Shown here in pieces: positions 1 to 39,485 of a stretch of 64,000 nt of DNA. Within the stretch, counting starts at the first letter, position 1. Each line of letters opens with the position of its first letter. Position numbers and translations under genes: made by a program. The notes beneath the pieces were generated by a model. It saw only the letters and a program-made list of their open reading frames with translations. It did no database searches and had not been told where the DNA came from. The stretch is from Zygnema cylindricum (taxonomy: Eukaryota > Streptophyta > Zygnematophyceae > Zygnematales > Zygnemataceae), in contig JBBHKE010000413.1 of the NCBI GenBank assembly GCA_037447655.1, positions 124,001-188,000 on the forward strand, in the 5' to 3' direction.

Positions 1-2738
1 CTCTCAATGGTATTATCGGGATTCAGCTTTAACTTGAATACCCACTTACAACCAATCGCTTTTCGATCCGGTGGAAGTTCCACAAGCTCCCAAGTTTGAG
101 CCTCCATAATTGACTTTATCTCGTCATTTGCCGCAGCAATCCACAGATCTTTTTCCGGAACAGAGAAAGCTTCTTGAATGGTAAGAGGCTCCCCTGTGAT
201 TGCAGAATAAGCATGATCCACTCGGTCACCTCTTAGCCGGCTGCTTTGTCTTCTTCCCCCCGGAAAATCTGAAGCGAGAATTGTTGGTCCCCGACGCAGT
301 CTTGGAGGAGGAGGAGGAGGAGGAGGAGGAGGAGGTCCGGTAGTAGTTGCAATAGTAGGTGGATCAGGCAGCCCCAAAACATGTGGTAGTTCAGATGTAG
401 ATGAAGAAACCGTTGTTTGCTTGAAAGGAATCTGCTCAAGGATGACATATTCCTGCAATTTTTCTGCCTTTTCCGCCTCATTCATGCTAAAAACATCAAC
501 AGATTGACTTTCTTCTTTGATTTGAATATTCCTAGCAATCTGAATAGTATTTTTCTGAGGATTATACACTCTATATCCTACCAACTCATCATCATAGCAC
601 AAAAATATGCCAGGTATAGATTTTGGACATAATTTCCAATTTGGAAGGTTATCCAACATAAAACACTTACTTCCAAATACTCTAAACTGACTAACATTCG
701 GCTTTCTTCTTGTCCACATTTCATAAGGTGTTTTATCCTTCACAGATCAAGTTTCTATTTTATTTCTAATGTAAGAAGCACACTGAAAAGCTTCCCCCCA
801 AAATTTCGGATCTACACTTTTATCCATCATCATAGACATATCACATTCAGTCAAGGTCCTATTGAGTCTTTCAGCCACACCATTCTGTTTCGGAGTGTAA
901 AAAACAGTAAACTCATGAGAAATTCCATTTTCTTTCAAGTATTCAGCAAAGGCATTTGATACATACTCTCCACCGTTGTCAGATCGCAAAGCAAGGATCG
1001 ATTTTCCGTGAAGTTTCTCCGCCCAGATCCGGAAATGCTTGAAATGTGTGAAGACCTCGCTCTTCTCCTTCATAAAGTACACTCGGCTGAAACGTGAGTG
1101 GTCATCAGTGAATGTAACAAGGTATTTCCTTCCACCAAGGGAAGGAACTTTGGCCGGTCCCCATACATCCGAGTGGATAAGGCCGAGAAGATCCTTTGCT
1201 CGATGATCTGAAGTCTGAGGTAAGGGAAGCTTATGAAGCTTTCCTAGAGCACAACCATCACAAACATGGGATTCCTTTTCACCAAGCTTGACACCTTCTA
1301 TCATATTAGTCTTCACCATCTTTTCAAGCCTCTCATTATGAACATGCCCAAGCCTTTTATGCCACAAAACATTTTCAGAAAGGACACTGGAGTACACAAA
1401 ATCAACTTTATTAACCAGGTCCATCCGATACAACATGTTTGGGCCTCTAGTTCCCACTAAGGCTACTCTCCCATCTTTGCTTACTATCTTTTTGCCTTTG
1501 CTCTGAAGAACATCAAAACCTTTACTTTCTGCAACTGAGGTAGAAAACAAATTTTTCTTAAATTTAGGCACATATAACACATCATGCAAAGTTCTTTTTA
1601 CAGCTTTGCCATCTATCTCACAATTCAGATCTATGCTACCCTTAGCATTAGCTTCCACCGTGGCACCACAAGCATAAAAGATTTGACGAGTAGGGATAGG
1701 TGTCATATCCTTGAAATACGATTTGTTCCAACACATATGGGAAGAACTTCCGGAGTCCATAATCCACCCGAGATCTCTCTCTCCCTCCATCATCTTTGCC
1801 ATAGCAAAGAACTCGGTGTCATCAGTTTTAGGAAAACTAACAACCTCTGATTTCTCCTTCTCCATCTCCTTTACCGGCTCCTCTTCCACCGCTGAAAAAG
1901 CTGCGGTTTTGCTCGGAGGTTTCGGTGTAAATGGAGCTCCTCTCACCTTCCATCCTTTGCGATAAGAACCTGTTTCACACGCTTTTATATACAAAGAACA
2001 AAACTTGTACAAATGACCATTATTATAGCAATAGACACACCGTTCATATTGCTGAAATGACTGATTTCCTTGAAATCTATTATCTCTCTGAAACTGAGCA
2101 TTGTAAGCTACAGCTGGCTTTCCAGAATTAAATGCCAATTGATTCGCTTCTTCTTCTAGCACATACTCTATAGCTGTAGCTAGATTCCACTGTGTCTTAT
2201 CCAATTTTTTCAGTTCATCATAGGCACCTTTATACTCACTAGGAAGCCCCCTCACTAAAATCATTGCTTGGTGATACTCAGGAAATGAACCACCTGAACA
2301 TGCATTTTCAGCAACTAGAAGTCTGAATTTATTGCAATATTCTGCCATGCTTCCGCCTGTATACTTATATTCCCAGATCTGCCCAGCAGTTATAATCTCA
2401 TGTTGTGCATTAGCCCTAGAATATGTCTTTTTCAAAGCATCCCAAATCTCTGATGCTTTAGAAGCCTGAATATATGTCATATGCAGCTCCTTAGATATCA
2501 TTAATTTTATCAAATGAAGAGCCTGCTCATTCTTTTGATCATAGGTTACATCAGTTTCTACCATAGATCCATTAACAACATCAAAAAGCTTTACTTGTAC
2601 AAAATACGACCTTACAAGATCTGCCCAATACAGATATTCTCTCCCATCAAAAACCGGAATTCGTGAAGGCGGGCCCGTAACCTGTTGTTCTGAGACAACA
2701 GCCGGAACCGAAGACGATGAGGATGCCGGTGTAGTCAT
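1..2738 (-). pseudogene. Cop-1 gag-protease-integrase-RT polyprotein, one in-frame stop, C-terminus off window
   Basis: Single frame from ATG at 2738 to position 1, broken only by a TGA at 747-749 (E-T-stop-S, probably from an Arg CGA codon). Gag spans about residues 1-300 with knuckle CVYCYNNGHLYKFC (CX2CX4HX4C) near 234-247. Protease has WIMDSGSSSHMC near 325-337. Integrase has HKRLGH and CDGC near 457-500, HSDVWGP near 521, DNGGEY near 588 and KQNGVAERLNR near 615. Beyond the stop the frame continues through FRVFGSKCF, a poly-proline run coded by a GGA-type repeat (about 305-335), and [21 protein letters not shown] at the start of RT. The start is chosen because the Ser-rich N-terminus continues in frame through the LTR end. 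It could be an intact element with one recent nonsense mutation. Confidence 0.9.
2668..2682 (-). other. Cop-1 primer-binding site, initiator tRNA-Met anticodon type
   Basis: Immediately next to the LTR and read on the minus strand, GGTTACGGGCCCGCC matches 13 of 15 bases of GGTTATGGGCCCACC, the complement of the anticodon stem-loop of a plant-type initiator tRNA-Met as I recall it. It lies inside gag and codes for V-T-G-P-P. Confidence 0.72.
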
Positions 2739-3521
2739 CTCGGAACCAAACCAAGCAAGAAACTTTCACAAAAACCAGTCTGAAAAACAGCAACTTCAAC
2801 AGTTGATAAAAACCAAACCAGAGACACAATAGCTCTGAAAATCTACCACAATGTAGATAATATCAAGATGAACATACACACAAAATTACATGTAATTCTG
2901 CTAACAGATCTGTGAGATATCCACAGATGAAAATGCCAAAAACAGGCTGTACAGTTTTGACTACAAAATGTTCATACCTTCAAAGTTATCTAAGTCCTAC
3001 TAATATACACCGAAGCCTATGCTGCTGAACGTACGGAGGCATACCAGCCGTACAATAAATACCTGCGGCTCGAACCGAACAAGGTACGTCATACAAAAAG
3101 ATTCCTTTACTAATCAACTAACCACACAAAGACAAAAATCTACTTAACTAGATATTTACAAAGGAGTAGGATTCTATATGCCACGTCATTTGTCGTGTAT
3201 GTGGCTCACACGGACCAGCATTTGTCGGCGGTCTCCCTCAGCCGCGTACATATCACATTCGGCACCGTAAACAAATCTCCATGTGCCATTTTGTCCTCAA
3301 GTGTATATATGCACAAACAATCGGATATTCTGGAGTGTCCTCTTTCTTGTAGTGACTTGTGTCTCGAGAGTGTATACAAAGGTGTACTCCCTACCGATCT
3401 AGTGGAACATCAATTCTGGTATGTAATGAAACGAACTTACAACCAAACATATGCTAATTCGTGAAACTCTCTCTCCCTCACACTCGAGGCATAGAGAGGA
3501 CTAAAGCTTTCCAAAACAACA
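2683..3521 (-). repeat. Cop-1 5' LTR (839 bp)
   Basis: On the plus strand it runs from TGTTGTTCTG to CAAAACAACA, giving a terminal inverted repeat TGTTGTT/AACAACA. Read in element orientation, the head TGTTGTTTTGGAAAGC is close to the heads of the other LTRs at 10676, 21336, 61681 and 63778. Its last 56 bp in element orientation code for the first 18 gag residues plus two bases of the next codon. The only copy in view, so the pair cannot be compared. Confidence 0.88.
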
Positions 3522-3547
3522 CTGTGTGCTATATTGTCCCTTTTACA
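3522..3547 (+). repeat. Gyp-1 5' LTR remnant
   Basis: The 26 bases CTGTGTGCTATATTGTCCCT followed by TTTACA match the end of the 3' LTR (about 9694-9720) with few differences. The upstream part of this LTR is separated by the Cop-1 insertion and lies outside the window. Confidence 0.82.
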
Positions 3548-3548
3548 C

Positions 3549-3560
3549 TGGTATCAGAGC
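3549..3560 (+). other. Gyp-1 primer-binding site, tRNA-Met 3'-end type
   Basis: TGGTATCAGAGC starts one base after the LTR end. It is the standard plant-type site complementary to the 3' end of initiator tRNA-Met. This contrasts with the copia elements here, which use the internal anticodon region of the same tRNA. Confidence 0.88.
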
Positions 3561-3580
3561 ATTTCCTGTGACTCGACAGC

Positions 3581-4482
3581 ATGGATGAACACGGCGTATC
3601 CACGACAGATATATTGGCGCAAGTTCTCAAGGAGTTAGAAAGTGTGAGATTACAGAACGCGCAACTGAGCAACACCGTCGCAGCCTTGGAGTCTCGTCTT
3701 GGTGAGCGTCCTCATGGAGGAATAGAGAGAGACTTCAGGAGATCGAAATTAAGACTTCCCGACGAGTTTGACCCTGCAAGACACAAGAACCTTCACACAT
3801 GGTTATTCTCCGTTGCAAACTATCTCGAGAATTTTCCTAGTCTATCGGATCGTGACTAGATTCAAACGCAGGTGGTCTTCTTAAAGGGGCAGCGGGGGCA
3901 TGGTGGAGGACATTGGTGGAGGATGATGGGATACCGACCGTCTGGGCGCTCTTCGTCCAACTTCTCCGCGACGCTTGGCAGCCCGTCAACACGGTGAAGG
4001 CGGCAAGAGATAAGATTGTAGTATTGAAGCAACGAACTTCAGTGATGGAGTTTACGTAGCCGTTCTTGGAGTGCAAAGTTCAAATACCTACGATGACGGA
4101 GGATGAAGCCGTGGATCGCTACGTGAAGGGGCTTAAATTGTCTATTCGTAGGAATGTTGAACAATGGCTTGCTCGGGAAAACACGACTCCTACTCTCTCG
4201 GCAATCATCCAAATTGCGGAGCGGACCGATTCGGTCGTCTTTAACCTCCGGAGACTTTATCACTATGGGTCGAGCAGTAGCGGAGGAAACCGACGAGACG
4301 AAGGTCCAACCCCCATGGAGCTCGGCGCAATTAATGAGGATAAAGAAGTGGTCAACGTCCTGCGCACAAAAGAAGAAACCTACCAAGACCGAGACCAATG
4401 ACTTATCCCCCGAGGAAATCCAGCGGAGGAGGCAAAATGGCCTATGCTTCCAGTGCGGTTCCCCAGATCATATGGCTTGAGA
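3581..4482 (+). pseudogene. Gyp-1 gag, broken
   Basis: ATG 3581 opens a 92-codon frame with a coiled-coil-like heptad stretch (VLKELESVRLQNAQL, residues about 15-30) and SKLRLPDEFD, ending at TAG 3857-3859. Downstream text still reads as a retrotransposon gag domain (GAWWRTLVEDDG near 3894; RYVKGLKLSIRRNVEQWL near 4120). A CCHC knuckle begins GLCFQCGSPDHMA near 4440-4478, where the frame stops before the final Cys. Capsid and nucleocapsid function is therefore lost; at least two stops and a frame change are visible. Confidence 0.82.
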
Positions 4483-4525
4483 ATGTTAAAAACGGAAAGG
4501 TCCCACAAAGGGAAAACTTACCGTT

Positions 4526-7500
4526 ATGAGGTTAGCCGGTGAAGGAGGAGAGCCTTTGATGTTTCGGTGTCAAATTGGAATGAGCGCAGCTAACTTCATG
4601 TTGGACTCCGGAGCATCGGGAAACTTCATTAACGAGGCGACGGTGAAAAGGTTGAAACTTCCTCTTGTGGTACTAAAGGACAATCAGTTGGTACAATTGG
4701 CCGACGGAAGTTCCTTAACGATTACCCATCGTACCCCGAGGTTACGCGTCGGCATTGAGAAATTCGGATGGTATGACACGCTTCATATATTACCTCTTGG
4801 GGACCATGAGGTAATCTTGGGGAAGCCGTGGCTGAAAAAATGGAATCCGACGATCGATTGGAGAAGTGGCGCCATGAGAGTGAAGAAAGGTGAAGAATAG
4901 TTTGAGGTAAATACAAGAGCGGCTGGTAAGGAAGCGGAAGAGGGACGCCTGCTTTCGGCCTTACAGCTGAAGAGGGCACTCAAGAGAGGGGAAACGATTA
5001 GTATGGCGATCGTCCAGCTAATAGAGGAGGCGAAGGAGGAGATTCCGGAAGAATGGAAGAAGGACCTCGACTTTGACTCAAAAGAGAGGGACGACGTAGG
5101 AAAGACTTCCGAAGAGGCCCCGAAAGTCGTGACAAAACTTCTCGAGGAGTACGTAGACATATTTCCCCCTAAGCTCCCCGAAGGATTACCTCCAAAGCGC
5201 GAGGTAGACCATAAGATAGAGCTTGTTCCAAGAGTGGTACCCCCGGCTAATCGGATGTACAAGATGAGTTACACTGAGTTAGACGAGCTCAAAAAGCAAC
5301 TCGCGGAGTTGGTCGAAGCCGGAGCAATCGAACCGAGCAAGTCACCATATGGAGCCCCCGTGCTTTTCGTAAACAAGAAAGATGGAGGTTTCCGTATGTG
5401 TATAGACTACCAAGCGCTAAACAAATTAACGGTGAAGAATGCGTACCTTTTACCGAGGATTGACGAGTTATTGGATCGACTGCGCGGAGCTAAATATTTT
5501 TCCAAGATAGACTTACAGAGCGGCTACCACCACATCAGAATTGTTGAGAAGGATGTGGAAAAGACGACATTTAGAACTCGGTACGGTCATTTTCAGTTTC
5601 GGGTAATGCCGTTCGGGTTGACTAATGCACCGGCAACTTTTATGCATTTAATGAATTCCATCTTTCGGGAATATCTGGATGCGTTTGTAATCATCTTCCT
5701 CGACGACATCCTGGTGTATAACCGAACGCAGGAGGAACATATAAAGCATTTGCCGACGGTCTTACAAGTCCTTCGGGAAAATAAGTTGTACGCAAATAAA
5801 AGCAAATGTGATTTCTTCAAGGAGAAAATTGATTTTCTGGGCCATGTGGTGAGCCAAGACGGAATCGCAGTGGATCCAAACAAAACGAAGGCAGTGAAGG
5901 AGTGGCCGCAGCCGGCGAATACTACGGAATTACGGAGCTTTCAAGGATTATGCTCCTACTATCGCCGTTATGTCGAAGGTTTCGCAAAAATCGCTACACC
6001 CCTCACCGAGTTACTCAAGAATGATGTGCCCAATGAGTGGAAATCGGCGCAAAGGGCAGCCTTTAACACGCTAAAGAAGCGGTTGGTCACCACCCATGTG
6101 TCAGCTGTTCCCGACCCGGACTTACCTTGGACGATAATCACCGACGACAACGATACGGCTATTGGAGCAATCCTTAAGCAAGATCAAGGAAAAGGCCTTC
6201 AACCCATTGCCTACGACAGTCGAAAACTAAAGGCAGCAGAGCTTAACTGGGCCACCCATGAAAAAGAGACTATTGCGATCATCAATGGGCTGGAAGTTTG
6301 GAAATGTTACGTCCAAGGAAAACGGATCACAATTATCACGGATCACCACGCCCTACAATATCTGCAAACCTAGCCAAAGTTGTCCAAGAAATAAGTGCGA
6401 TGGATGACGTTTCTTTTGACCTTTGGATCGGAACTTGTCATCGAGTATAAGCCGGGCAAGACGAACCCGGCGGATGCGCTGTCAAGAAGACCCGGAGTCG
6501 CTGCGCTAGTAGCGGAGCAACGACCGCAAGCATCGCAGCATGTAAACGTGAACTCTGTGAAAGAGAACACCGCAGCGTCGACTGCAGCGCAAGATCCGAA
6601 ACTCAGCGCAGTCACAAGTACTGTGCAAGTGGACGAACAATGGTTAAGCAGAATAAAGGCCGCCTACGGCGACGACAACACACTGAATGAACTCATTAAA
6701 CGGAAGGTACTAATTCGAACCGCCAACGGTAAGTGGCGCTACAGACTGGGTAAAACAATACGACTGTATGTTCCGACAAATATGGAGTTACGTCATACGA
6801 TTCTTATAATGAGTCACGATGAGCCGCTCAGTGGACATTTTGGGCGGGATAAAAGAATTGCGCGTGTCGCTGAGGCGTATTACTGGCCGAGCATGACTTG
6901 CGACATTGCGGAATATGTCCGAACGTGCGACTCCTGTAACAAGAACAAATCGGAACCAGGGCAACAAGGTCTGTTACAACCCCTTCCCATACCATTTGTC
7001 CATTGGGAAGCAATTTCGATGGACTTCATCGTAGCTCTTCCGTTGACAAAGGAGGGCTACGACTCAATCTTCGTCGTCATGGATTACTTAACGAAAATGG
7101 CCCATTTCTTACCCACGTCCACCACAACCACTACACGAGATATCGCGGACTTATTCTTTCAGAGATATTCCGCCATCACGGACTTCCGAATAGGATCTTC
7201 AGCGACAGCAATCGCAAATTTATGAGCCACTTTTGGCGAAATCTATTTACGCTGTGTGGCACGCACTTGGCCATGTCCACAGCTTATCACCCTCAAACTG
7301 ATGGTCTGACTGAAAGGGTGAATCGAACTCTAGGCGATGCTGGCTTATGTCTCGGTGCACTAAACGGATTAGGTGGACCATTTTACGACGATCGAGGTGG
7401 CGTACAACAGTGCGGTGCACTCGTCTACGAATGCTACGCCATTCTCACTAAATAGACGACAACCCACTCTTCCCCAAAACTTATTGGTAGCGGATTGCCA

Positions 7501-9796: not shown

Positions 9797-10676
9797 TGTT
9801 CTGTGATTGCTATACCAACTGAAGATGAAGATGATGTTGGAGTAGACATCTCAGAATTGAGATAAGCAAGAAGCTCTCACAGATGCTCAAAAAAATACAC
9901 ACAACTTTGGAACACAGCCAAAGATAATTTAGGTAATTAAATGGCATTAAAAATCTTACACAATGCAGATAATACACAAAAGAACACAAGTGCAAATTTA
10001 CACAGAAATCTGCAAACAGATCTGAGAGATATTTTCAGTCAAAGATATCAAAAATGTCATAGCATAATTTTGATACAACAAGTTCCTAATTTTAAGATGG
10101 CTAAGTCCTATTCTTATACCTAAAAGATCTATTCTTCTAAGAGCTAGCAGCCACTTATTCCCCTAACTAAGCAAAGGAGGCATACCAACCATGCATCAAT
10201 AATATCTACTTTTCTAAAAGAGGATACCTGAATATGTCAAGTTATGTCATACAAAAAGAATTTGAACTGAGGCACTAATAAAACAAAACACGCTTCTGTA
10301 CAAATTAGAGATAAGTAACATCACTGTACATCGTGTACAAACACGTTAGATAATTACAGACGTGGTCTCGGATAACCACCTTCCGTCGGCGGCAAATCTT
10401 CACCGTCTATCATTTCGAAGTTTCATCCAAGATGAAACTTTTATGTGACAATTCGGTCTTTATGGTAAGCCTGAATAGTACGAACGGATCTTTGTAGAGA
10501 GTCTCATTTACCGACGCGTGTCTTGAAGTGTCTCACACCGTGAACTCCCTCACTGTTCAGTGAAGTATTAATTTTGGTACATACTGAACCAAACTTTTCA
10601 AAAAATATTCTAAATACTGAGAAAACACTCCCCTCGCCTATGAAACTTAGTGAGGACTAAAGCTTTCAAAATAACC
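9797..10676 (-). repeat. Cop-2 3' LTR (880 bp)
   Basis: Runs from TGTTCTGTGATTGC (one TGT shorter than family members) to CAAAATAACC, a mutated form of the CAAAACAACA end. Similar along its length to the LTRs at 20456-21336 and 60800-61681. In element orientation the last 53 bp code for 17 gag residues plus CA, three bases fewer than relatives but still in phase. Confidence 0.85.
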
Positions 10677-10693: not shown

Positions 10694-13688
10694 ACAGTAC
10701 TTGTCACTTATACAACATCCCTCTCTACAGAATTTCAATTTTGGGGCAGGTAAGGGTTTTGTCATCATATCTGCCAACATTTTCTCATCAGGTAAGTAGC
10801 TGAGTTTTAGAATTATGCCTTTGACCTTTTCCCTCACAAAGCGCAATTTAATGTCAATATGCTTGCTTTTGAAATGATGACTACGATTAGAAGCAATAGC
10901 AATAGCAGCTTGATTGTTACACCAAATAACTTGAGGACCAGACTGCATAAATTTCAGTTCTTGTAAAAGAGACTTTACCCAAAGAAGTTCCTTAACAGCT
11001 GAGCTAGCTGCCATGTATTCAGCTTCCATGGTGGACTGAGCACTCACCTTTTGGAGCTTGCTTGTCCAGTAGCAAGTACCATTACCGATATTCAGAATGA
11101 ATCCAGTGGTAGAACGTCGGCTTGGCATATCACTATAACTCGCATCGCTCCAGGTGTTGATCTTCACTTCATCTCCTCTAAGAGACAGTCGAAGATCTCG
11201 TGTTCCTGCAAGATATCTCAGAACTCGTTTTGCTGCCTCCCAATCTGATTTCTTCGAATTCTGAAAACTTCGACTCAGAGCTCCAACAACCGCTGCAGAT
11301 TACTTTAAGAAAAGTAGGATTGTTGTGTAGGAAAAACTGCGAAGCAGTTTTTGGGTGTGTTTGAATTATAAGATCATTGTGATCTTTTGGCAGAACTTTG
11401 TGAAATTCTGCATGTGGTTTCTCTAGTGTATATTTTATATTGTGGCAAATTTGCAGACCTAGGGTGTGTCTGGTTTGCTTTGGGCTTCATTTTGAAATTG
11501 GTTGTTTGTGGGATTTCGTGAGAGTTTCCTCTTTACACAATTGATTATCATGGCAACTGCTGGTGCTTCTTCATCTTCTTCAATGGCACCGGCTGCCTCA
11601 AATCAACATCTCTGAGTGAGGTAAATAACTCTTTGACTCTAATCTCTCTCTACTTGAATGCCTAGGATATACTTAGCTTCACCTAAGTCTTTCATTTCAA
11701 ACCTGGCATTCAGAGATGCTTTTATTTTATTTATTTCATTCAATGATTTGCTGATTAGCAGCAGATCATCAACATACAGTGCTACATAAGTCACACCATC
11801 ATCTCGTTCAATGATATAAACAGAGTGATGTGAGCTGATCCTTGTAAAGCCCAAGCTGGTAAAAAACTCATCCAATTTCAAATTCCACTGTCGTGGAGCC
11901 TGTTTCAATCCATACAACGATTTCAACAATTTTGCAGACTAGATTCTCCTTTTCTTTTTCTACATAACCTTTAGGTTTTTTCATATAGATTACTTCCTCT
12001 AAGTCTCCATGCAAGAAGGCAGTTTTAACATCCATTTGATGCAATTCCATATTCTCAATTGGAACTAAGGACAACAAGACTATGACAAAAGGAAACTTGA
12101 CAACAGGAGAGAAGGTTTTCTTTTAGTCTATCCCATCCTTTTGACTAAAACCCTTTGCAACTAGACGAGTTTTATACCTTTCAATGGTGTTGTCTAGGTT
12201 GAGCTTCACTTTAAAGACCCACTTGCATCCAATGGCTTTCCGATCCGATGGAAGCTCCACAAGTTCCCACGTTTGGGCTTCCATGATCGATTTCATCTCA
12301 TCATTTGCAGCTGAGATCGAATGATCCTTTTTAGGAACAAAAAATGCCTCCTGAATGGTAAGAGGCTCCTCAGTGCTTGCAGAAAAAGCATATTGAACTT
12401 GTTCTCCCCTTAAACGAGAACTATGTCTTCTTCCCCCTGGAAAATCTGAGGTTGGAAATGTTGGATACTGAGCTCCACCTTGAGGTCTTGGAAGATGAGG
12501 ATCAACTGTTGTTTATTGTTCAGAAGCTGACGGTCCTCCAGTATTTTGCAAACCTGTAGAAGCTGCAGCAGACTGAAAGGGAATCTGATCGAGGATGACA
12601 TATTCTTGCAGTTTTTCTTTCTTCTCATTCTCATCCATACTAAATATGTCTATGGACTCACTCTCATCCTTTACTTAAATATTTTTAGCAATCTGGATGG
12701 TATGTTTCCGATGACAATAAATTCTATATCCTACAGATATATCAACATATCCCATAAAGATTCCAGGTTTAGACTTTGGACTCAGTTTCCAGTTTGATAG
12801 ATTATCTAGTACAAAGCACTAGCTACCAAAAACTTTAAAGTGAATGACATCTGGTTTTCTGCCAGTCCACACTTCATAAGTTGTCATTCCCTGAACACAT
12901 CTAGTTTCTAATCTGTTCCTCATATATGCTGCAGTTTGGTTCAGCCCAAAATTTAATATCTATTCCTTTATCAGCCATCATAGATTTGACACTCTCAGTT
13001 AGAGTTTTGTTTAGCTTTTCTGAGACTCCATTCTGCTCAAGAGTGTAAGGTACAGTGAACTGGTGAGATATACCATTTTCTTTTAAATAAACAGCAAACT
13101 CATTGGAAGTATATTCACCTCCATTATAAGATCTTAAGGAGAGAATCGATCTACCATGAAGTTTCTCCGCCCACATCCGAAAGTGTTTGAAGTGGGTGAA
13201 GACCTCCTTTTTCTCCTTTATAAAATAGATTCTGCTGAATCTGGAGAAGTCATCTTTGAATGTGACAAAGTATTTGTTGCCAGCAAAAGATGTTACTTTG
13301 GAGGGTCCACACACATCTGAAAGAACAAGTTCTAAGATATTAGTTGCTCTGAAATTTGCAACTTGGGGTAAGGGAAGTTTATAAAGCTTGCCCAAAGAAA
13401 AACCATCACAAATACTTGACTGTTGATGACCAAGCTTAACTCCTTCTACCATATCATTTTTGACCATCTTTTCTTATCTGTCATAATGAACATGACCCAA
13501 CCTTTTATGCCACAAAACATTATCAGATAAGACACTGGAGTAAGCAAAAGAAGATGTATTCACCAGGTCCATCCGGTACAAATTATTTGGGCCTCTAGTT
13601 CCCATTATGGTTACCCTTCCCTCTTTGTTGACTATTTTTTTTCCGTGTTTCTAAAGTATTTAAAAACCTCTACTTTCTGCAACTCATG
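10682..13688 (-). pseudogene. Cop-2 integrase-RT-RNase H, fragmented
   Basis: RNase H (10682-11167) shows WSDASYSDMPSRRSTTGF, MEAEYMAAS, KHIDIKLRFV and LADMMTKPLP, but the usual WCDNQ is WCNNQ, so a likely catalytic Asp is lost. RT (11639-12300) has [15 protein letters not shown] and an intact YVDD (LYVDDLLLIS). Integrase (12901-13467) has CDGFSLGK in place of CDGC and NGGEY preceded by Tyr rather than Asp. About 215 bp between RNase H and RT are replaced by the foreign LTR at 11301-11608. Frames change several times; it is non-functional. Confidence 0.85.
11301..11608 (+). repeat. Partial LTR of another copia family inside Cop-2
   Basis: Foreign sequence between two Cop-2 segments. It probably starts at TGTTGTGTAGG (11321) and ends AATCAACA at 11608. 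It carries ATG 11550 and codes MATAGASSSSSMAPAASNQ plus two bases, the same gag-in-LTR layout as the other families. About 215 bp of Cop-2 is missing at the site and no target duplication is visible, so it arrived with a deletion or was left by recombination. Bases 11301-11320 are unexplained. Confidence 0.65.
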
Positions 13689-14743
13689 TGTAGAAAATAA
13701 TGGTCCATTTTAAGTATTTTATAGGTCTAAATAGAAATATAGAAAGAAGTTGAGGCTGTCTACCTCTAACTTCTTTCTCCAACTCTCAAACTTGTTACAG
13801 TCACTGATAAATTAGAGAGGGAGCTAAAGCCAAGGCTACCTAGGCTATCTCGAGGTTTACGCGAAATTTATATTAGTTAGGGGTTTATTTACTAAAAGGG
13901 TATGTGGCGGCCACAGGATTTGATCTTGGTACGTACCGGCCGACAGACAGCAGTTAGCCGGTAGCCTTAGCCGTTAAGTCTAGAACTAATATTACGTAGT
14001 ATATGGTTTGATATTTATTTAAACATGAATACGTAGGATAAATCATTTAACTGTAATTGTTTAGGGGATACATAGATCCGGTAATGTATAAGTACGGCTT
14101 ACTAAACGGACAAGAAATCAATACCGCACATATGTTTCTTTAGTGAAACAAATACCCCGTATGTATTTATTACGGCTACGATTAAAATCGAATTTAATCG
14201 GACGGCCGGAATTAGCGCTGAGATCGCGGAAGAAGATTTCGGCGGATTGTGGCCATCTCTACATCGGATGACACGTGGCGAAATTACATTGGATGGTGGT
14301 ATCTCCGGAGATTATGGCACCGAATCCGGATATGAGATGAATCGACATTTAGGCCATGTCGTACAATGTCCTTAGATAAAGTACACCGGTAGCTGTACTT
14401 TTGCGTACATAACTCTAATCTGATTGGTTCCATACATCAGTATATAGAGTCTGTGAGAGAGATAGGACTTAGAAAAATTTGGAGATAGGACCCTCTCTCC
14501 CAGAGAGCTTATGTACAAAAGGTCAACTTTGATCCTCCATAACTTACTGCTCAGGGGAGCAAATGCAGAGATTCTTTTTGCTATCGACTCAGCCAAGTCT
14601 TCCTTTCACATGGGTGCAGGTGTTCAGAGTTTTTGTTCGCCAGGGTGGCAGTTGATTTTGCTGAAACACAAAGGGGTCAAAGTTATCTTAGAGGCTCTTG
14701 GAAGCTGTCCACTCTGAGGACTTATGGAGGTCTCAGAGTTACA
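13689..14743 (+). repeat. Cop-3 5' LTR (1055 bp)
   Basis: Starts TGTAGAAAATAATGG and ends GAGTTACA, with TGTA/TACA ends. It aligns over its length with 62025-63059 and over its last third with 16297-16663. The terminal 20 bp carry ATG 14724 and code M-E-V-S-E-L plus CA. Confidence 0.87.
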
Positions 14744-16296: not shown

Positions 16297-16663
16297 AAGG
16301 TACACCGGCAACTGTACTTTTGTGTACAGAACTCTAATCTGATTAGTTCCGTACATCAGTAGATAGAGTCTGTGAGAGAGATAGGACTTAGAAAAATTAG
16401 AAGATAGGACCCTCTCTCCCAGAGAGCTTCTGTACAAAAGGTCAACTTTGACCCTCTATAACTTACTGCTCAGGGGAGCAAATTCAGAGATTCTTTTTGC
16501 TATCGACTCAGGGGAGTCTTGCCTTCACAAGGGTGAAGGTGGTTAGAGTTTTTGTCTGCCAGGGTGGCAGTTATTTTTGTTTAAACACAAAGGGGTCAGG
16601 ATTATCCTAGAGGCTTCTTGGAAGCTCTCCACTTTGAGGACTTATGGAGGTCTCAGAGTTTCA
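16297..16663 (+). repeat. Cop-3 3' LTR, last third, joined to Cop-4R
   Basis: Closely similar to the last part of the LTR at 62025-63059 and slightly less so to 13689-14743. Ends GAGTTTCA at 16663, then Cop-4 RNase H sequence begins. It retains ATG 16644 and 20 bp of gag coding in the same phase. The first two thirds of the LTR are absent. Confidence 0.82.
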
Positions 16664-20455: not shown

Positions 20456-21336
20456 TGTTGTTCTGTGACTGCCACACCAACAGAGGATGAAGATGATGCA
20501 AGAATAGACATCACAGAATTCAGATAAGCAAGAAGCTATCACAGATGCTCAAAAAAGAACACACAACTTTGGAACACAGCCAAAGATAATTTAGCCAACC
20601 AAATGGCCTACAAATCTGATACAATGCAGATAATACACAAAGGAACACAAGTGCAAACTTACACAGAAATCAGCAATCAGATCACAGAGATATTCTCAGT
20701 CAACTGATATCAATAGTGACACAGCATAATTTTGACACAACAAGTTCCTAATTCTGAAATGCCTAAGTCCTATATTTATACCTAAAATATCTATTATTCT
20801 AAGAGTTAGCAATCACTCACTACCCTTACTAAGCAGAGAAGACATACAAGCCATGTATCAATAATATCTATTTTCTGAAACTATGATACCTGAATATGTC
20901 AAAGTATGTCATACAGAATGAATCTGAACTGAGACAAAATCAAACAAAACAAGTTTCTCTACAAACTAGAGATAAGTAACGTCACAATATACTGTGTATA
21001 AACACGTTAAGTAATTATAGACGTGGTTCTGGATGACCACCTTCTGTTGGAAGCAAATCTTCACCGTCAATCATTTAGAAGTTTCATCCAAGATGAAACT
21101 TTTATATGACGCCTCGGTCTTTATAGTATGTCTGAATAGTACGAACGGATCTTTATAGAGTGTCTCAATTACCGACGCATGTCCTAAAGTGTGTCAAACC
21201 ATGAACTCCCACACTGTTCACAGTAACATTAATTTTGGTTCATAGTGAACCAGATTTTCAGAAAATATTCTAAGTATAGAGAAGACACTTCCCTCACCTA
21301 TGAAGCTTAGTGAGGACTAAAGATTTCAAAACAACA
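20456..21336 (-). repeat. Cop-4R 5' LTR (881 bp)
   Basis: TGTTGTTCTG to CAAAACAACA with matching terminal inverted repeats. Very similar to 60800-61681 (882 bp), its proposed partner. The flank after 21336 is satellite beginning CTTAG. Confidence 0.9.
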
Positions 21337-25679: not shown

Positions 25680-25684
25680 TTACC
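25680..25684 (+). other. Left target-site duplication of Cop-5 (TTACC)
   Basis: TTACC ends the satellite at 25684 and is repeated at 31494-31498, directly after the other end of Cop-5. Confidence 0.9.
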
Positions 25685-26447
25685 TGTTGTTCTACAACCA
25701 CCGGTGCAGGTGGAGGAGCAGCAGTAGTAGTAGAAGTAGACATGATACACTCTCAGAAGCTATCAAGAATCCTACCAAACAGCTGTTCTTAAGTGCTCAC
25801 CACCTCTTATACAAGCATTCAAACCTCACAAAACTCAAACAGAATATAGAGTAGAATAAACACTGATAACTCCCAAAGTTATAGCATAATTGACCTGACA
25901 ACACTCAAGATATAATACTAAGAAGTTTCCCAAACATTGTATGCAGTTTTACTACTTCGAAGTCTGGATACATCATGTGTTTTGAGTCCTTAGTCTTATA
26001 CTAGTGTTGTACCGGCAATACCACTGTACCTAAGAGTTACGTCAAGCTGCCAAGCTAATACTAAGCTACCACTGAGCTACCACAGAGCTACCATTGAGCT
26101 ACCACTAAGCTACCATTGAGCTACCACTAAGCTACCCACTAAGTTACCACTGAGTTCCCACTAAGTTGACTAGAATCGTATCTATCGCAGTTGCTCTATC
26201 CTGTACAGAATCACATTAAGAATATCAGACGTTGCGTTGTCCGTACGGACCATATCAAATATAATCATGGTTGCCTTGTCCTATCTGTGTTGCTGCTTCG
26301 CTGCTGAGCTATTCTGCTGCTGCACTGCTGTATAGCAGCTGCGCTGCTGTATAGCAGCTGCGCTGCTCTGTTGTATAGCAGCAGCGCTGCTCTATCTATA
26401 TAGCAGCTGCGCTGCTCTGAGACTAAAAGCTTTCCCAAAAGACAACA
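25685..26447 (-). repeat. Cop-5 3' LTR (763 bp)
   Basis: TGTTGTTCTACAACC to AAAAGACAACA. Inside are a 12-bp-period repeat built on GAGCTACCACT (26060-26160, seven GCTACC units) and a GTATAGCAGCTGCGCTGCT hairpin repeat (26290-26420). ATG 25743 (minus strand) opens 19 codons plus CA to the LTR end; the terminal CA is intact here, unlike the 5' copy. Confidence 0.93.
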
Positions 26448-30717: not shown

Positions 30718-30732
30718 GACAGGCCCATAACC
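30718..30732 (-). other. Cop-5 primer-binding site, initiator tRNA-Met anticodon type
   Basis: On the minus strand GGTTATGGGCCTGTC follows the LTR with no spacer; the first 11 bases match the initiator-tRNA-Met anticodon complement exactly. Read in gag as V-M-G-L-S. Confidence 0.85.
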
Positions 30733-31493
30733 TATTGTTCTACAACCACCGGTGCAGGTGGAGGAGCAGCAGTAGTAGTAGAAGTAGACATGATACACTC
30801 TCAGAAGCTATCAAGAATCCTACCAAACAGCTGTTCTTAAGTGCTCACCACCTCTTATACAAGCATTCAAACCTCACAAAACTCTATCAGAATATAGAGT
30901 AGAATAAACACTAATAACTCCCAAAGTTATAGCACAATTGACCCGACAACACTCAAGATATAATACTAAGAAGTTTCCCAAACACTGTCTGCAGTTTTTC
31001 TACTTGGAAGTCTGGATACATCATGTGTTCTGAGTCCTAGGTCTTATACTAGTTTTGTACCGGCAATACCACTGTACCTGAGAGGTACGTCAAGCTGCCA
31101 ATCTAATACTAAGCTACCACGAGCTACCATGAGCTACCACTGAGCTACCACTAAGCTACCATTGAGCTACCACTGAGCTACCCACTAAGTTACCACTGAG
31201 TTCCCACTAAGTTGACTAGAATCGTATGTAACGCATTTGCTCTATCCTGTACAGAATCATTTTAAGAATATCAGACGTTGCGTTGTCCGTACGGACCATA
31301 TCAATTATAATCATGGTTGCCTTGTCGTGTCTGTGTTGCAGCTTCGCTGCTGCGCTGTTCTGCTGTTGCGCTGCTGTATAGCAGCTCCGCTGCTGTATAG
31401 CAGCTGCGCTGCTGTGTTGTATAGCAATTGCGCAGCTCTGTCTGTATAGCAGCTGCGCTGCTCTAAGAATGAAAGCTTTCCAAAAAGACAACA
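30733..31493 (-). repeat. Cop-5 5' LTR (761 bp)
   Basis: TATTGTTCTACAACC to AAAAGACAACA. Nearly identical to the 3' LTR, including the GAGCTACC (31112-31200) and GCAGCTGCGCTGC (31340-31462) repeats. The plus-strand TG edge is TA, a change that also makes the gag stop. Confidence 0.93.
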
Positions 31494-34400
31494 TTACCTA
31501 AATTACACAAACTGTTAGCGATAACAAGAATTGATATCTAAATTACACAAACTGTTAGTGATAACAACCATTGTAATCTAAATTACATAAAATTTTAGCG
31601 CTAACATGAATTGTTATCTAACTTACACAAACTATTAGCGATAACAAGAATTGTTAACTAAATTAAATAAACAATGTGCCATAACAATAATTGTTACCTA
31701 AATTACACAAACAATTAGCGATAACAAGAATTGTTACCTACATTATATAAACAGTAAGCGATAACAGAAATTGTTATCTAACTTACACAAACTGTTAGAG
31801 ATAACAAAAATTGTTACCTAAATTAGACAAGCACTTAGTGATAACAGTAATTGTTACCTAACTTACAAAAACTGTTAGCGCTAACTAGAATTGTTACCCA
31901 AATTACACAAATTCTTAACGCTAACAAGAATTAATTCCTAACTTACAAAAACTGTTAGCAATAACAAAAATTTATATCTAAATTACCCAAAAAGTTGGCG
32001 ATAACAAGAATTAGTATCTAAATTACACAAACTGTTAGCAATAACAATAATTGTTACCTAAATTATATAAACAGTTAGCGATAACAGGAATTTTGACCTA
32101 AATTACACAAACAGTTAGCGATAATAAGAATTGTTACCTAAATTACACAAACTGTTAGCGATATCAGGAATTGTTACCTAAATTACACAAATAGTTAGCG
32201 ATTACAGGAATTGTTATCTAACTTACACAAACTGTTAGCGATAATAAGAATTGTTACCTAAAAATACACAAATTCTTAGGGTTGTTTTGATTTTTTTTCA
32301 AACTTACACAAACTGTTAGCGATATTAGGAATTGATATCTAAATTACACAAACAGTTAATGATAACACAATTTGTTATCTAAATGACACAAACAGTTAGC
32401 GATAATAGGAATTGTTATCTAAAATTAACAAACTATTAGCGATAACAAGAATTATTACCTAAATTACACAAATAATTAGAGATAACAAGTATAGTTACCT
32501 AAATCACACAAACTCTTAGCAATAACAACAATGTTTATTTAACTTACACGAACTGTTAGCGATAACAAGAATTGTTACCAAAATTACACAAACAGTTAGC
32601 GATAAAAGGAATTGTTATCTAAATTACACAAACTGTTAGTGATGACAAGAATTGTTATCTAACTAACACAAATTGTTAGCGATAATAAGAATTGTTACCT
32701 AAATTACACAAACAATTAGTGATAACAAGAATTGTTACCTAAATTACACAAAAAGTTAGCGATAACACGAATTGTTATCTAAATTACACAAATTGTTAGC
32801 GATAACAGGAATTGTAATCTAAATTACACAAATTGCTAGCGATAACAATAATTGTTATCTAAACTACACAAACTGTTAGCGATAACAGGAAATGTAATCT
32901 AACTTACACAAACTCTTAGCGATAACAAGAATTGTTACCAAAATTACACAAAAAATTAGCGATAACAAGAATTGTTACCTAAATTACAAAAACAGTTAGC
33001 GATAATGGGAACTCTTACCTAAATTACACAAACTGTTAGCAATAACAAGAATTGTTACCTAAATTACACAAACAATTAGCGAAAACAGGAATTATGACCT
33101 AAACTACACAAAAAGTTAGCGTTTACAGAAATTGTTATCTAACTTACACAATCTGTTAGCGATAACAAGAATTCTTACCTAAATTACACAAGCTGTTAGC
33201 GATAACAGTAATTGTTACTTTACTTACATAAACTGTTAGCGCTAACAAGAATTGTTACCTAAATTACACAAGCAGTTAGCGATAACAAGAATCATTATCT
33301 AAATCACACAAGTTATTAGCGATAACAAGAATTATTATCTAACTAACAAAAACAGGTAGAGATAACAAGAATTGTTACCTAAATTACAGAAACAGTTAGC
33401 GATAACACGAATTGGTATCTAAATAACACAAATTGTTAGCGATAACACGAATTGTTACCTAAATTACACAAACAGTTAGCAATAACAAGAATTATTTCCT
33501 AAATTACAAAAACAGTTTGCAATAACAATAATTGTTATCTAAATTACACAAAAAATAAGCGATAACACGAGTTGTTACCTAAATTACACAAACAGTTAGC
33601 GATAACATCCATTGTTACCTAAGTTACACAAACAGTTAGTGATAATAAAAATTGCTACCTAATTACACACATAATTAGCGATAACACGAATTGTAACCTA
33701 AATTAGACAAACAGTTAGCGATAACAGTAATTGTTATCTAATTTACAAAAACTGTTAGTGATAACAATAATTGTTACCTAAATTACATAAGGAGTTAGAG
33801 ATAACATAAATTTTTTGCCTAACTTACACAAACTGTTAACGCTAACAAGAATTGTTACCCAAAATTACACATATTTTGTGTTGACAATAAATTTTACCTA
33901 ACTTACACAAACTGTTAACGATAACACGAATTGTTACCTATATTACACAAACAATTAGAGATAACAAGAATTATTATCTAAACTACAAAAGCAGTCAGCA
34001 ATAACAAGAATTGTTACCTAAATTAAAGAAACAGCTAGCGATAACAAAAATTGTTATCTAAATTAAACAAAATGTTAGCAATAACAGAAATTGTTCCCGA
34101 AATTACACAAACAATAAGCAATAACAAGAATGGTTACCTAACTTACACAAACAATTAACGATAACAAAAATTGTAACCTTAATTACACAAGCATTTAAGA
34201 ATAACAAGAATTTTTACCTAAATTACACAAACAATTAGCGATAACAAGAATTAATACCTTAATTACACAAACAGTTAGCGAATACAGGAATTCTTATCTA
34301 ACTTACACAAAATGTTAGCAATAACAAGAATTGTTACCTAAATTACTCAAACTGTTGGCGCTAACAAGAGTAGTTACCTAACTTACACAAATTGTTAGCA

Positions 34401-36971
34401 AAAAGAGGAATTGTTATCTAACTTACACAAACTCTTAGCGATAAAAAAAAAAATTACCTAAATTACACAAGCAGTTAGTGATAAGAGGAATTGTTACCTA
34501 ACTTACAGAAACTGTTAGCAATTACAAGAATTGTTACCTAAATTACACAAATTGTTAGCGATAAGAGGAATTTTTTCTAAATTACACAAACTCTTTGGCT
34601 TATAGACATTATTACCTAACTTACACAAACTGTTAGCGATAACAAGAATTGATAACTAAATTACACAAAGAGTTAGCGATAACAAGAATTGTTATCTAAA
34701 TTACACAAACAGTTAGAAATAACAATAATTGTTACCTAAATTACCCTAACTGTTAGCGATAATAAGAAATGTTACCTAAATTACACAAACAATTAGTGAT
34801 AACAAGAATTGTTATCTTAATTACACAAACTGTTAGCGATAACAAGAATTGTAACCTAAATTACACAAACAGTTTTCACTAACAAGAATGGTTACTCAAC
34901 CTACACAAACTATTTGCGCTAACAAGAATTGTTACCTAAATTACACAAACAGTTAGGGATAACAAGAATTGTTACCTAAATTACACAAATTGTTAGCAAT
35001 AACATGAATTGTTATCTTAGTTACACAAACTATTAGCGCTAAAAGAAATTGTTATCTAACTTACACAAACTATTGTGATAAAAAGAATTGTTACCTAAAT
35101 TACACACACAATTAGCGATAACAGGAACTGTTACCTTAATTACACAAACAGTTAGCGATAACAAAAATTGTCACCTAAATTAAACAAAATGTTAGGAATA
35201 ACAAAAATTGTTTCCTAAATTACACAAACAATTAGCGATAACAAGAATGGTTACCTAACTCACATAAACCGTTAGCGCTAATAGAAATTGTTATCTAACT
35301 TACACAAACTGTTAGGGATAACAAGAATTAAAACCTAAATTACAGAAATAGTTAGCGATAACAAGAATTGTGACCTAAATTACACAAACAATTAGCGATA
35401 ACCGGAATTATTATCTATATTACACAATTTGTTAACAATAACACCAATTGTAATCTAAAATACACTAATTGTTAGTGCTAACATAAATTGTTATCTAACT
35501 TACACAAACTGTTATCGATAACAAGAATTCTTACCTAAATTACACAAACAATTAGCGATAACAAGAATAGTAACCTTAATTACCCAAGCACTTAAGGATA
35601 ACAATAATTGTTACCTAAATTACTCAAATAATTAGCGATAACAAGAATTAATACCTAAAGTACACAAACAGTTAGCGATAACAATAATTCTTATCTTACT
35701 TACACAAAGTGTTTGCGATAACAAGAATTGTTACCTAAATTACACAAATTGTTAGCGCTAACAAGAATTGTTATCTAACTTACAAAAAATGTTAGCGATA
35801 ACAAGAATTGTTACCTAAATTACACAAACAGTTAGCGCTAACAAGAATGGTTACCTAAATTACACAAACAGTTTTTGCTAACAAGAATTGTTACTCAACT
35901 TACACAAACTGTTTGCGCTAACAAGAAATGTTACCTATATTACACAAACTGTTAGTGATAACAACAATGGTTACCTAAATTACACAAACAGTAAGCGATA
36001 AAAAGAATTGTCACCTAAATTATAGAAACTGTTAGCGATAACATGAATTGTTATCTAACTTACACAAACTATTAGCGCTAACACGAATTGTTATCTAACT
36101 TACACAGACTGTTAGTGATAACAATAATTTTTACCTAAATTACACACACAATTAGCGATAACAAGAATTGTTTCCTTCATTGCACAAACTGTTAGCGATA
36201 ACAACAATTGTAACCTAAATTACACAAACAGTTTTTGCTAACAAGAATGGTTACTCAACTTACACAAACTGTTTGCGCTAACAAGAAATGTTACCTATAT
36301 TACACAAACTGTTAGTGATAACAACAATGGTTACCTAAATTACACAAACAGTTAGCGATAAAAAGAATTGTCACCTAAATTATATAAACTGTTAGCGATA
36401 ACATGAATTGTTATCTAAATTTCACAAACAGTTAGCGATAACAATAAATGTTATCTAACTTACACAAAATTGTTAGCGATAATAGGAATTGTTATCTAAC
36501 TTACACAAACTATAAGCGATATCAAGAATTGTTACCTAAATTAGAGAAACAATTTGCGATAACATGAATTGTAACCTAAATTACACAAACAATTAGCGAT
36601 AACAAGAAAGGTTACCTAACATACACAAACTATAAGCGCTAACAGGAATTGTTATCTAACTAACACAAACTATTAGGGATACCAAGAATTGTGACCTAAT
36701 TTACACAAATAGTTAGCGATAATAGGAATTAGTACCTTACTTATAGAAATTGTTTGCGATAACAAGAATTGTTACCTAAATATCACAAACTGTAAGCGAT
36801 AACAAGAATTGTTTTCTAAATTACACAAACTGTTTGTGCTAAAAGACATTGTTACCTAACTTACACAAACTTTTAGCGCTAACAAGAATTGTTACCTAAA
36901 TACACAAATAGTTAGCGATAACACGAATTGTTATCTAAATTACACAAATAGTTAGGGATAACAAGAATTGG
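31494..36971 (+). repeat. Sat40 satellite, block 2 (about 137 monomers)
   Basis: Same 40-bp monomer and orientation as block 1. The first five bases are the right TTACC target duplication of Cop-5. Nine-monomer block 35868-36010 is repeated 360 bp later at 36228-36370, including the unusual CAGTTTTTGCTAAC and GTTTGCGCTAAC variants. The right edge is the ATTGG target duplication of Cop-6 (36967-36971). Confidence 0.97.
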
Positions 36972-37661
36972 TATTGAAAAGTAAGCTTTAGTAAGTCTTA
37001 GAAATTTGAGTCTAAGCCTTATAATATTTTTGGAATACCAACAGTTCAATATTGACCAAATTTAGTGTGGATTTTTTGTAGTATCTACACGAATTGATAT
37101 CTTTAAGTTAATTAGTGTGTAGGGCCGCCAATGAATGTAGACGTGATAAGAATCACCCGGATTTTTAGGGTATAGATATTGTTAGTGGACAATTCTGGTC
37201 CAAACACTTAGATTTTCGTTAGTACACTGTCTGGTGAACCATGTACATACGTTTTAGATGTTTTCTAGATATTTTAGATGTTTTTTAGATCTTTTGAGTA
37301 TTTAGTTCAATTAGGATTGATCATTTCAATACAGAATGTACATTCTACACAAGAATTAAGGAAATGAGAGCACTAAATGCAGTTTAAGGTGTTTTATGCT
37401 CTATTGTCTATAATTTGCTTGTAGTACATGTTTGTTTGGTTGAAATACCTCTTTCGTTTGGAGTTACATATCTTACACTATAGATCTAGTGTTTTAGGCA
37501 TTTCTCTTTGGGTTTGCTTCCGCTAACATGTCTGATAATGGCTCAGCTCCTATTGCAAGTGCTCCTATTAGCCCTAGTGCTCCACCTGCTCTTGCTGGTG
37601 CAAGTGTGGCTCCTAGTGGGAGTGGATCACAGCCGAGTCTTAATGCCCATGACCTTCAACA
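36972..37661 (+). repeat. Cop-6 5' LTR (690 bp)
   Basis: Starts TATTGAAAAG and ends CTTCAACA, an imperfect terminal inverted repeat. Contains ATG 37528 followed by 44 codons plus CA up to its end, the longest LTR-encoded gag N-terminus in the window. Confidence 0.9.
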
Positions 37662-39288
37662 AGTTATGGGCCCACCGCCCAAATTGCCTATTTTTGACAG
37701 AACTGACTACTTATACTAGGAAGATATGTTGAGCTCATATTTCGAGGAGAGGGACTTGTCACCCATTGTGGAAGGAACAGCGGATGTGACTGCGCCGGAT
37801 TGGAGAAAGAAGAATCTCCATTGCCTCAACGTCTTAAAGCAATGTATGACAAAAGATTTGGTAATGTCGTATCTTGAGATGAAGAAAGCCTTTGAAGTTT
37901 GGTTTAGTATACGTGCTATGTATGTTCAGCTAGATGTTACCGTTCAGACTAACATAGCAACTCAGATTTTTGAATTTAAGTGTTCTAGAGGTAGTATCTC
38001 TGATCATTGTCATGCTAAGAAAAGGTTGTTTCTTCAGAGTACTAGTGCAGTTGGGGACTTTTCACCACCTCAGTAGACTATGTTCTTGATGAGAACTTTG
38101 CGCGATGAATATAAGGGAGCCATGGATAGGCTTAGGACTATTCCACAACGTCAATCGAACATAGCTTTAGCAAAACAACTTATTTTGAGCGGAGAAGCTA
38201 ACCAAATGTCACAAAGAGGTAGTAGTAAGTCTGTTCAGGCACTAGCTAACCAGTTTTCAGACTCTAAGATTGGCAATGGCAGTGGCAGAGGTAGTGGTCC
38301 TAGAAGAACACCTTTGACATGCTATTATTGTGATCAAAAAGGCCATGTTTTCAGATTGTGTAATGCCTACAAGAGAGCGAAAGCTACATGAAATTTTTGC
38401 TCTGGTTGGGACGAAAGCCGGGTTCCTTCTCAATCTGGTGGACGGCCAACTTCTCTATTCAACGAACTAAAGCAGGAGGATGTGAGCAGCTATCCTATCA
38501 ACAGCGAAAAGAAATACTTTACGATGGCAAAAGCAACGAAAGGAGTGGAGAAAGACGAATGGATAATGGACTGCGGTGCATCTGCCCACATGTGCCGGAA
38601 TCGCCATCTATATGAGAGCATTCAATCTATTTCACCCATCAAAATTTATTTTAGTGATGATACCTTTGTTGAGTCAAAAGCAAAGGGGAGGGTGTCACTT
38701 ATGTTGAACGTAGAGGGAAAACCTGTGAAAAGGGTTTTGGAAGATGTGTTGCATGTCCCAGCTTTTAAAAGAAACTTTTTCTCTACGTCGGTGGTAGAAA
38801 AGAAAGGTTTTAAAACTATATCTGAGAATGGAAAGAAAACAGTGAGTAAGAATTGGAAAATAGTTGTAGAAGGATTTGCTGGAGGAAACAATTTGTATCG
38901 GTTGAGTCTTGCAAATGATAATGACAATGATGTTATGTACTCAAGTGTAATCAGTGATTGTGATTTATGGCATAAACGTTTAGGACATGTGAATTATGAT
39001 AGATTAGAAAAGATGGTAAATCAAAAAATGGTGGAAGGTGTAAAAATTAGTCAAAAACCAGCATCAAATGTATGTGATGGTTGTGCAATGGGAAAAATTC
39101 ATAAGTTGCCTTTCCCTTTGCAAACTGATCATAAAAGTAGCAGGGTGCTAGAACTAATTTATTCAGATGTATGGGGGCCATCTAGGTATCCATCTGTGGG
39201 AGGTGCTAAGTTTATGCTTTCCTTTACTGATGAATATAGTAGATTTACTACAGTTTATTTTTTAAAGAGTACATGTTTGTTTGGTTGA
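37528..39288 (+). pseudogene. Cop-6 gag-protease-integrase fragment, with stops
   Basis: ATG 37528 opens a Ser/Ala/Pro-rich N-terminus inside the LTR, crosses the primer site and reads PKLPIFDRTDYLY to TAG 37717-37719 at a conserved Trp position. Further stops are TAG 38074-38076 and TGA 38389-38391. Gag knuckle CYYCDQKGHVFRLC is near 38320-38360. Protease-integrase is open at 38482-39288: WIMDCGASAHMC (DCG where DSG or DTG is usual), HKRLGHVNYDR, CDGCAMGK, YSDVWGPSR. The last residues TCLFG are already LTR sequence beyond the deletion joint. Confidence 0.88.
37662..37676 (+). other. Cop-6 primer-binding site, initiator tRNA-Met anticodon type
   Basis: AGTTATGGGCCCACC follows the LTR directly; 14 of 15 bases fit GGTTATGGGCCCACC, the best full-length fit here together with Cop-3. 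Codes V-M-G-P-P in gag. Confidence 0.88.
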
Positions 39289-39485
39289 AATACCTCTTTC
39301 GTTTGGAGTTACATATCTTACACTATAGATCTAGTCTTCTAGGCATTTCTCTTTGGGTTTGCTTCCTCTAACATGTCTGATAATAGTTTAGCTCTTATTG
39401 CAAGTGCTCATATTAGCCATAGTGCTTTACCTGCTCCTAGTGAGAATGGATCACAGCCGAGTCTTAATGCCCATGACCTTCAACA
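39268..39485 (+). repeat. Cop-6 3' LTR, last third
   Basis: Begins at AGTACATGTTTGTTTGG, matching 37422 onward in the 5' LTR, and ends CTTCAACA. ATG 39373 starts 37 codons plus CA; relative to the 5' copy it lacks 21 bp, exactly seven codons. The joint shows AGTA microhomology with the integrase coding text. Confidence 0.88.

Follow-up and report, generated by a model that had tools for sequence, protein, structure and literature searches.

The gag gene of several families of copia-type retrotransposons in Zygnema cylindricum (Zygnemataceae) probably starts inside the long terminal repeat (LTR), at an AUG from which it would be read through the LTR end and the adjoining primer site. Judging from sequence, we give this reading a probability of about 85%. 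The elements lie in a stretch of 64,000 nucleotides (nt), here called the window (contig JBBHKE010000413.1 of assembly GCA_037447655.1, positions 124,001 to 188,000), and were followed through the 352.8-Mb assembly that holds it. An earlier note on the window had claimed that the distance from an LTR-internal ATG to the LTR end leaves a remainder of 2 on division by 3 in every copia family, so that the terminal CA of the LTR forms the first two bases of a codon completed by the primer site. In the sequences we found an open frame, a near-constant phase, a conserved LTR start codon and, in one family, codon-level selection.

The assembly was searched with a pattern that took no account of phase, namely ACA plus GGTTATGGGCC, the latter being the site directly behind the LTR, which we take to match the anticodon arm of initiator tRNA-Met. 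The pattern occurred 2252 times and its reversed control six times; the first 100 of the 2252 places served as the sample. Downstream of these 100 sites, runs of at least 60 codons numbered 59 in the frame of remainder 2, two in that of remainder 0 and one in that of remainder 1. When the best frame was assigned to each copy with at least 60 open codons, 59 out of 61 had remainder 2, and the other two remainders were represented by one copy each. Over the whole 430 nt fetched, 32 copies were open in remainder 2 and none in the other frames. An in-frame LTR ATG, which the earlier note expected of intact genomic copies, was present in 30 of these 32, and the two exceptions were decayed copies (CAA to TAA in L056, ATG to ATA in L090).

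In the sample as a whole, an in-frame LTR ATG was found at 74 of the 100 sites. Eleven of the remaining 26 belong to one family, in which the frame closes 12 codons past the primer site; the rest comprised five copies with a mutated start codon and three with a new stop, all with the phase kept, two frameshifted copies (25 and 73 nt) and five whose start was unalignable. The claim for every copia family needs correcting here, as the family of these 11 sites has no gag frame immediately after the primer site. The members of this family (L031, L059, L065, L066, L069, L070, L074, L076, L077, L116 and L125) share the same primer site. In L031 and L059, read over 1500 nt downstream, no long gag-like frame was seen, no domain search having been made; the family is perhaps non-autonomous. 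Another copy with the same primer site, L038, is divergent and decayed, with gag-like stretches, judged by eye, in another frame; it is possibly an exception to the phase rule or a case of simple decay. The LTR-encoded N-termini in the genome fall into seven types: MEVSEL; MAEIGYGQ or MARNGYGQ; MSTSTTT...; MSDNGSAP...; MATAGASSSSS...; MGDSATSGS...; and the Cop-1 type, MTT(P/A)ASSSSS.... Cop-6-type segments have lengths of 92, 134, 143 and 152 nt among the genome copies, with a shorter window segment of 113 nt; every one of these leaves remainder 2, and they differ by whole codons.

Loci of the family of Cop-1, an element of the window, were collected by a protein search, with 68 rows among the matches listed. 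Five rows whose match fell short of the start were dropped (L019, L024, two on C1283 and one on C608), leaving 63 listed loci, several of which have an open frame of 1423–1428 amino acids without a stop. In 62 of the 63, ATG stands as the LTR start codon, and in all 63 the position of this codon is 56 nt from the LTR end. The primer site reads GGTCACGGGCCCG in 40 loci, GGTTACGGGCCCG in three, GGTCACGGGCCCA in two, GGTTATGGGCCCA in three and other variants in 15. Its AUG is kept in four loci and absent in 59, long-open copies included, so a start there is unavailable to most of the family. This bears on the alternative that gag starts at the primer-site AUG, the complement of the CAU anticodon, and that the LTR ATG lies in an untranslated leader. 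Of the 61 sampled copies with 60 or more open codons, 59 have the primer-site AUG in frame with gag, and the window element Cop-5 is open for 450 codons from this AUG. However, the Cop-1 family keeps the LTR ATG where it mostly lacks the primer-site AUG, its LTR codons evolve as coding sequence, and the LTR ATG sits 5' of the primer-site AUG; we consider such a start improbable. Chance, that is, an open LTR ATG falling in this phase at random among related and decayed copies, is scarcely credible. Most copies in the window are decayed and related, with short LTR segments, but the excess of open runs in a single phase and the start codon conserved in the Cop-1-type loci listed both speak against it. 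With counts of 59/61, 32/32, 30/32 and 62/63, a gag that starts in the LTR and crosses the primer site, as the earlier note had proposed, is the best reading.

Coding constraint on the LTR-encoded segment was assessed by codon changes in pairs chosen by the analyst, seven in all, of which two Cop-1-family pairs only were significant. L026 and L004, from two subfamilies, differ in the 51 LTR-encoded nt after the ATG by seven synonymous and three nonsynonymous codon changes (P = 0.0008); read in either other frame, the same segment has no synonymous and nine nonsynonymous changes. The differences number 3, 0 and 9 by codon position. In this segment the synonymous value pS is 0.57 and the nonsynonymous value pN 0.08, the next 100 codons giving 0.48 and 0.15, and the 120 nt 5' of the ATG are 59% identical in an ungapped comparison. 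Within the window, comparison of Cop-1 with three decayed relatives showed a paucity of nonsynonymous changes, with P values between 0.014 and 0.023; the three relatives compared with one another gave 0.18 to 0.47. Copies of the Cop-5 type show greater similarity in the LTR-encoded segment than in the sequence 5' of it, again ungapped.

In the window, all 11 distances from LTR ATG to LTR end were recounted and agreed with those of the earlier note, each with remainder 2. An in-frame stop lies 9–57 nt 5' of each of the 11 ATGs, so each ATG opens its frame, and GGTTATGGGCCC or a variant follows directly after the LTR end in the 5' copies. On the minus strand, the putative LTR-encoded gag start of Cop-1 occupies 2683..2738, with the ATG at 2738 and 56 nt to the LTR end (MTTPASSSSSVPAVVSEQ); ATG stands there in all 28 loci read. 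The Cop-1 primer site GGTTACGGGCCCG (2670..2682, minus strand) would be translated QVTGP and is without AUG. The open frame from the LTR spans 747..2738 (minus strand) with 663 codons covering gag, protease and integrase, with Retrotran_gag_2, Pol_BBD, gag_pre-integrs and rve. Also on the minus strand are a 53-nt segment in the 3' LTR of a Cop-1-related subfamily (9797..9849), a 56-nt segment in a 5' LTR (20456..20511), followed by AATCACTGGCCCA at 20443-20455, and a 56-nt segment in a further copy of the same subfamily (60800..60855). The LTR end at 60800 was taken to be the copy called Cop-4L in the earlier note, and lies outside the range given there.

The remaining segments belong to other families. 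Cop-3, on the plus strand, has a 20-nt segment encoding MEVSEL at 14724..14743, with the primer site at 14744-14756, and the same segment in its second LTR (MEVSEF, 16644..16663, 20 nt). Cop-5, on the minus strand, has 59-nt segments in its 5' LTR (30733..30791, MSTSTTTAAPPPAPVVVEQ; primer site 30720-30732) and in its 3' LTR (25685..25743), where the LTR end is CA and the target repeat GGTAA occupies 25680-25684. In Cop-6, on the plus strand, the 5' segment is 134 nt long (37528..37661; primer site 37662-37674, AGTTATGGGCCCA) and the 3' segment 113 nt (39373..39485), or 21 nt shorter. The frames of Cop-3 and Cop-6, both decayed, end 17 codons past the primer-site AUG. An LTR end of another family (MATAGASSSSSMAPAASNQ) lies at 11550..11608 on the plus strand with 59 nt, and a genome copy, L101, has a similar N-terminus followed by a primer site and 76 open codons. 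At 11298-11608, this other family's LTR end sits within a Cop-2-type copy, with no clean adjoining target repeat seen.

Several points weigh against an LTR start or narrow the counts that favour it. The window copies are related, and 11 out of 11 is not 11 independent events. Cop-1 is the only one of the 11 with hundreds of codons open from the LTR ATG, and at the junction with the primer site the Cop-5 5' LTR has TAG, the 3' LTR having CAG. Taken by itself, the evidence of the window is suggestive only. In the genome, the 74 in-frame sites and the Cop-6-type copies were selected for being in frame, and 10 more copies were placed by homology. In the Cop-1 search, 67 of 35678 candidates were scored, and dropping the five rows favours copies that keep the ATG. 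An open LTR ATG also occurs in remainder 1 in 30 of 59 gag-open copies, and in remainder 0 in 1 of 59; those of remainder 1 stand mostly at -10, -13, -16 or -19, and 24 of the 30 are closer to the LTR end than the in-frame ATG. For four Cop-5-type pairs the test for coding constraint gave P values between 0.12 and 0.64, and for the single Cop-6-type pair 0.16, none of them significant; five pairs of Cop-3- and MAEIGYG-type segments, which are too short to tell, gave no clear signal. The claim that the LTR end is under coding constraint is thus upheld for the Cop-1 family and went unsupported in the Cop-5, Cop-6, Cop-3 and MAEIGYG pairs compared.

The sequence 5' of the ATG adds two points of the same kind. 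Six Cop-1-type loci with long open frames, L025-L030, carry out-of-frame ATGs at -199 (6/6) and -124 (5/6), and the numbers of upstream ATGs in eight window LTRs, though all below the shuffled mean, reached P < 0.05 in four only. In seven of the eight LTRs examined in the window, namely those of Cop-1, of its three relatives and of one Cop-3 copy and both of Cop-5, a TATA-like box lies 257–283 nt 5' of the ATG; the second Cop-3 copy has TAGATA at this position. Transcription probably begins below the box. A ribosome scanning from the start predicted by the TATA-like box would meet the ATGs at -199 and -124 first; hence either the transcription start is nearer to the ATG of gag, or the ribosome passes over the other two. 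Depletion of upstream ATGs as proof of scanning was dropped, being weak in the window LTRs and not observed in L025-L030. In these six loci the gag frame is also open 5' of the LTR ATG, as far as a stop at -165 (five of the six) or -96 (L028).

If gag starts in the LTR, transcription would begin within the LTR, 5' of the LTR AUG, and this AUG would be the one used. Ribosomes would read 6 to about 50 LTR codons and then the primer site, CAG GTT ATG GGC CC, as Gln-Val-Met-Gly-Pro, before entering the Gag domain. The LTR end would serve simultaneously as the end of the element, as integrase substrate and as coding sequence. The near-constant phase is possibly explained by the primer-site AUG. Pairing with the CAU anticodon would hold an AUG four bases past the LTR end, and only remainder 2 would put that AUG in the gag frame, where it cannot be an out-of-frame start and could at most yield a shorter Gag.

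A different account of the phase, compatible with a start in the LTR, dispenses with any special link to the primer-site AUG: the phase may merely have been inherited from one ancestral layout and kept since gag must stay in frame. We put this at slightly less than an even chance. The families appear to be related, as a similar stretch past the primer site suggests (GPPSRIPVFDG, GPHPWLPIFDG, GPPPKLPIFDG). The Cop-1 family holds the phase mostly without an AUG; GGTTATGGGCCC is stop-free in every phase, so stops do not force the choice; and yeast Ty1, with a full-tRNA site, has remainder 2 by our own arithmetic. Nothing decisive was found against inheritance alone. It is also conceivable, if rather unlikely, that both AUGs are used, the LTR AUG giving full Gag and the primer-site AUG a shorter Gag by leaky scanning, with the Cop-1 family having lost the second start; this, too, is compatible with the favoured LTR start. 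Among the 59 sampled gag-open copies, 52 have both AUGs in frame. Ty1 has a separate RNA that starts internally; from internal AUGs of this RNA comes a truncated Gag, p22, which restricts the element's own movement (PMC5408680).

The primer in these elements may be a half tRNA. The primer site of copia is complementary to the initiator anticodon arm. Here, the LTR ends read have no TGG-type site, that is, no match to the 3' end of a whole tRNA as in the genus Pseudovirus. In the Cop-1 family most primer sites depart from the canonical form, and the predicted pairing of the Cop-1 site with a generic initiator half is -22.5 kcal/mol, the same as for the Cop-5-type site, the canonical site giving -31.0. 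A new tRNA as a requirement of the Cop-1 site was therefore dropped: with pairing equal to that of the Cop-5-type site, mismatched use is possible. The primer of the Cop-1 lineage is possibly a mismatched initiator half or, after a primer switch, another half tRNA. Three Cop-1-family loci (L002, L015 and L140) have canonical GGTTATGGGCCCA at all three changed positions, and three others (L001, L005 and L028) have the first canonical base only; these rare sites could be a record of how far the tRNA primer was copied, or ancestral forms. Co-change of primer-site positions 6 and 13 to keep a palindrome was rejected as well, L162 and L163 having one without the other.

A wider hypothesis, which we regard as doubtful, takes the primer site of half-tRNA copia elements for a double code. 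To pair with the initiator anticodon, the message would have to contain an AUG, to which the phase of gag would be locked and which would offer a shorter Gag a second start. In the Cop-1 lineage this lock would have been broken (GGTCACGGGCCC versus GGTTATGGGCCC); the lineage would have persisted with a mismatched initiator half or another half tRNA, and its rare canonical or halfway copies would be records of tRNA copying by reverse transcriptase (RT).

The Cop-1 family is of the copia type by its domain order, with Retrotran_gag_2, Pol_BBD, gag_pre-integrs and rve in Cop-1, and SH3_retrovirus then RVT_2 downstream in its relative L026; from the other copies in the window, no more than some domains of the gag or integrase side were recovered. 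In Cop-5, the element examined for this feature of Ty1/copia, the LTRs run TGTTG...CAACA and GGTAA flanks the element on either side, a short target duplication that fixes its LTR end. No close relatives were found in viral contigs, and a protein search with Gag residues 1-300 returned none at E 0.01. Among RT relatives, the 120 listed of 7851 are 34–56% identical across the whole query or a part of it and come from plants, oomycetes, an alga and metagenomes. The RuBisCO large subunit had no match in the assembly.

A gag start codon in the LTR with the primer site inside the gag frame is a layout like that of Ty1. We take the Ty1 primer site to abut the LTR. Given that adjacency, the numbers in PMC5454406 (5' untranslated region nt 1-53, primer site nt 95-104) place the Ty1 AUG 41 nt from the LTR end, again remainder 2. 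The earlier note knew of no description of gag beginning upstream of the primer site across several families; the arrangement is not without precedent, as the Ty1 GAG open reading frame (ORF) already contains that site (PMC4974528). Ty1 thus resembles the present elements in its LTR start codon, its primer site in the GAG ORF and its phase, but takes as primer the 3' end of an intact tRNAiMet (PMC5454406 and PMC5371799). The present site matches the anticodon arm instead, and its canonical form consequently contains AUG; moreover, the present genome alone has seven types of LTR-encoded N-terminus.

Half-tRNA or internally cut initiator-tRNA priming is described for Drosophila copia, other hemiviruses and yeast Ty5 (PMC8515867; PMC5371799), and the present elements may resemble these in the type of primer site, a likeness drawn from published descriptions. 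The plant Ty1/copia lineages Osser, Bryco and a portion of Gymco-II have primer sites complementary to half tRNA-Met (PMC6317226), again a possible likeness of primer site. In the open-access literature, we found no description of a gag start 5' of the primer site in hemiviruses and no LTR-start gag outside Ty1, a primer site within gag being mentioned, among the papers seen, only in the Ty1/Ty3 review PMC4974528. The layout itself is therefore known from Ty1; half-tRNA copia elements, or several families, with this layout were not found in print in that literature.

A diverged 40-bp satellite forms long arrays in the window at about 21300-25680, 31480-36980 and 39490-60800, with Cop-5, Cop-6 and others between and inside them. 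At about 3540-9630 there are remains of Ty3/gypsy type, with RVT_1 and RNase H in 5003-6373 and a full-tRNA type site, TGGTATCAGAGC, at 3549; a 342-codon frame in this region (7926-8954) has no Pfam match.

If gag does start in the LTR, the layout known from Ty1 would also hold for a group of copia families whose primer sites match half a tRNA. LTR ends could then bear protein-coding constraint, with a bearing on LTR finding, on models of U5 and on dating by LTR divergence, and 3' and solo LTRs would carry a start codon whose short open frame continues into the adjoining host DNA. Any genome with half-tRNA elements would serve to test the phase rule.

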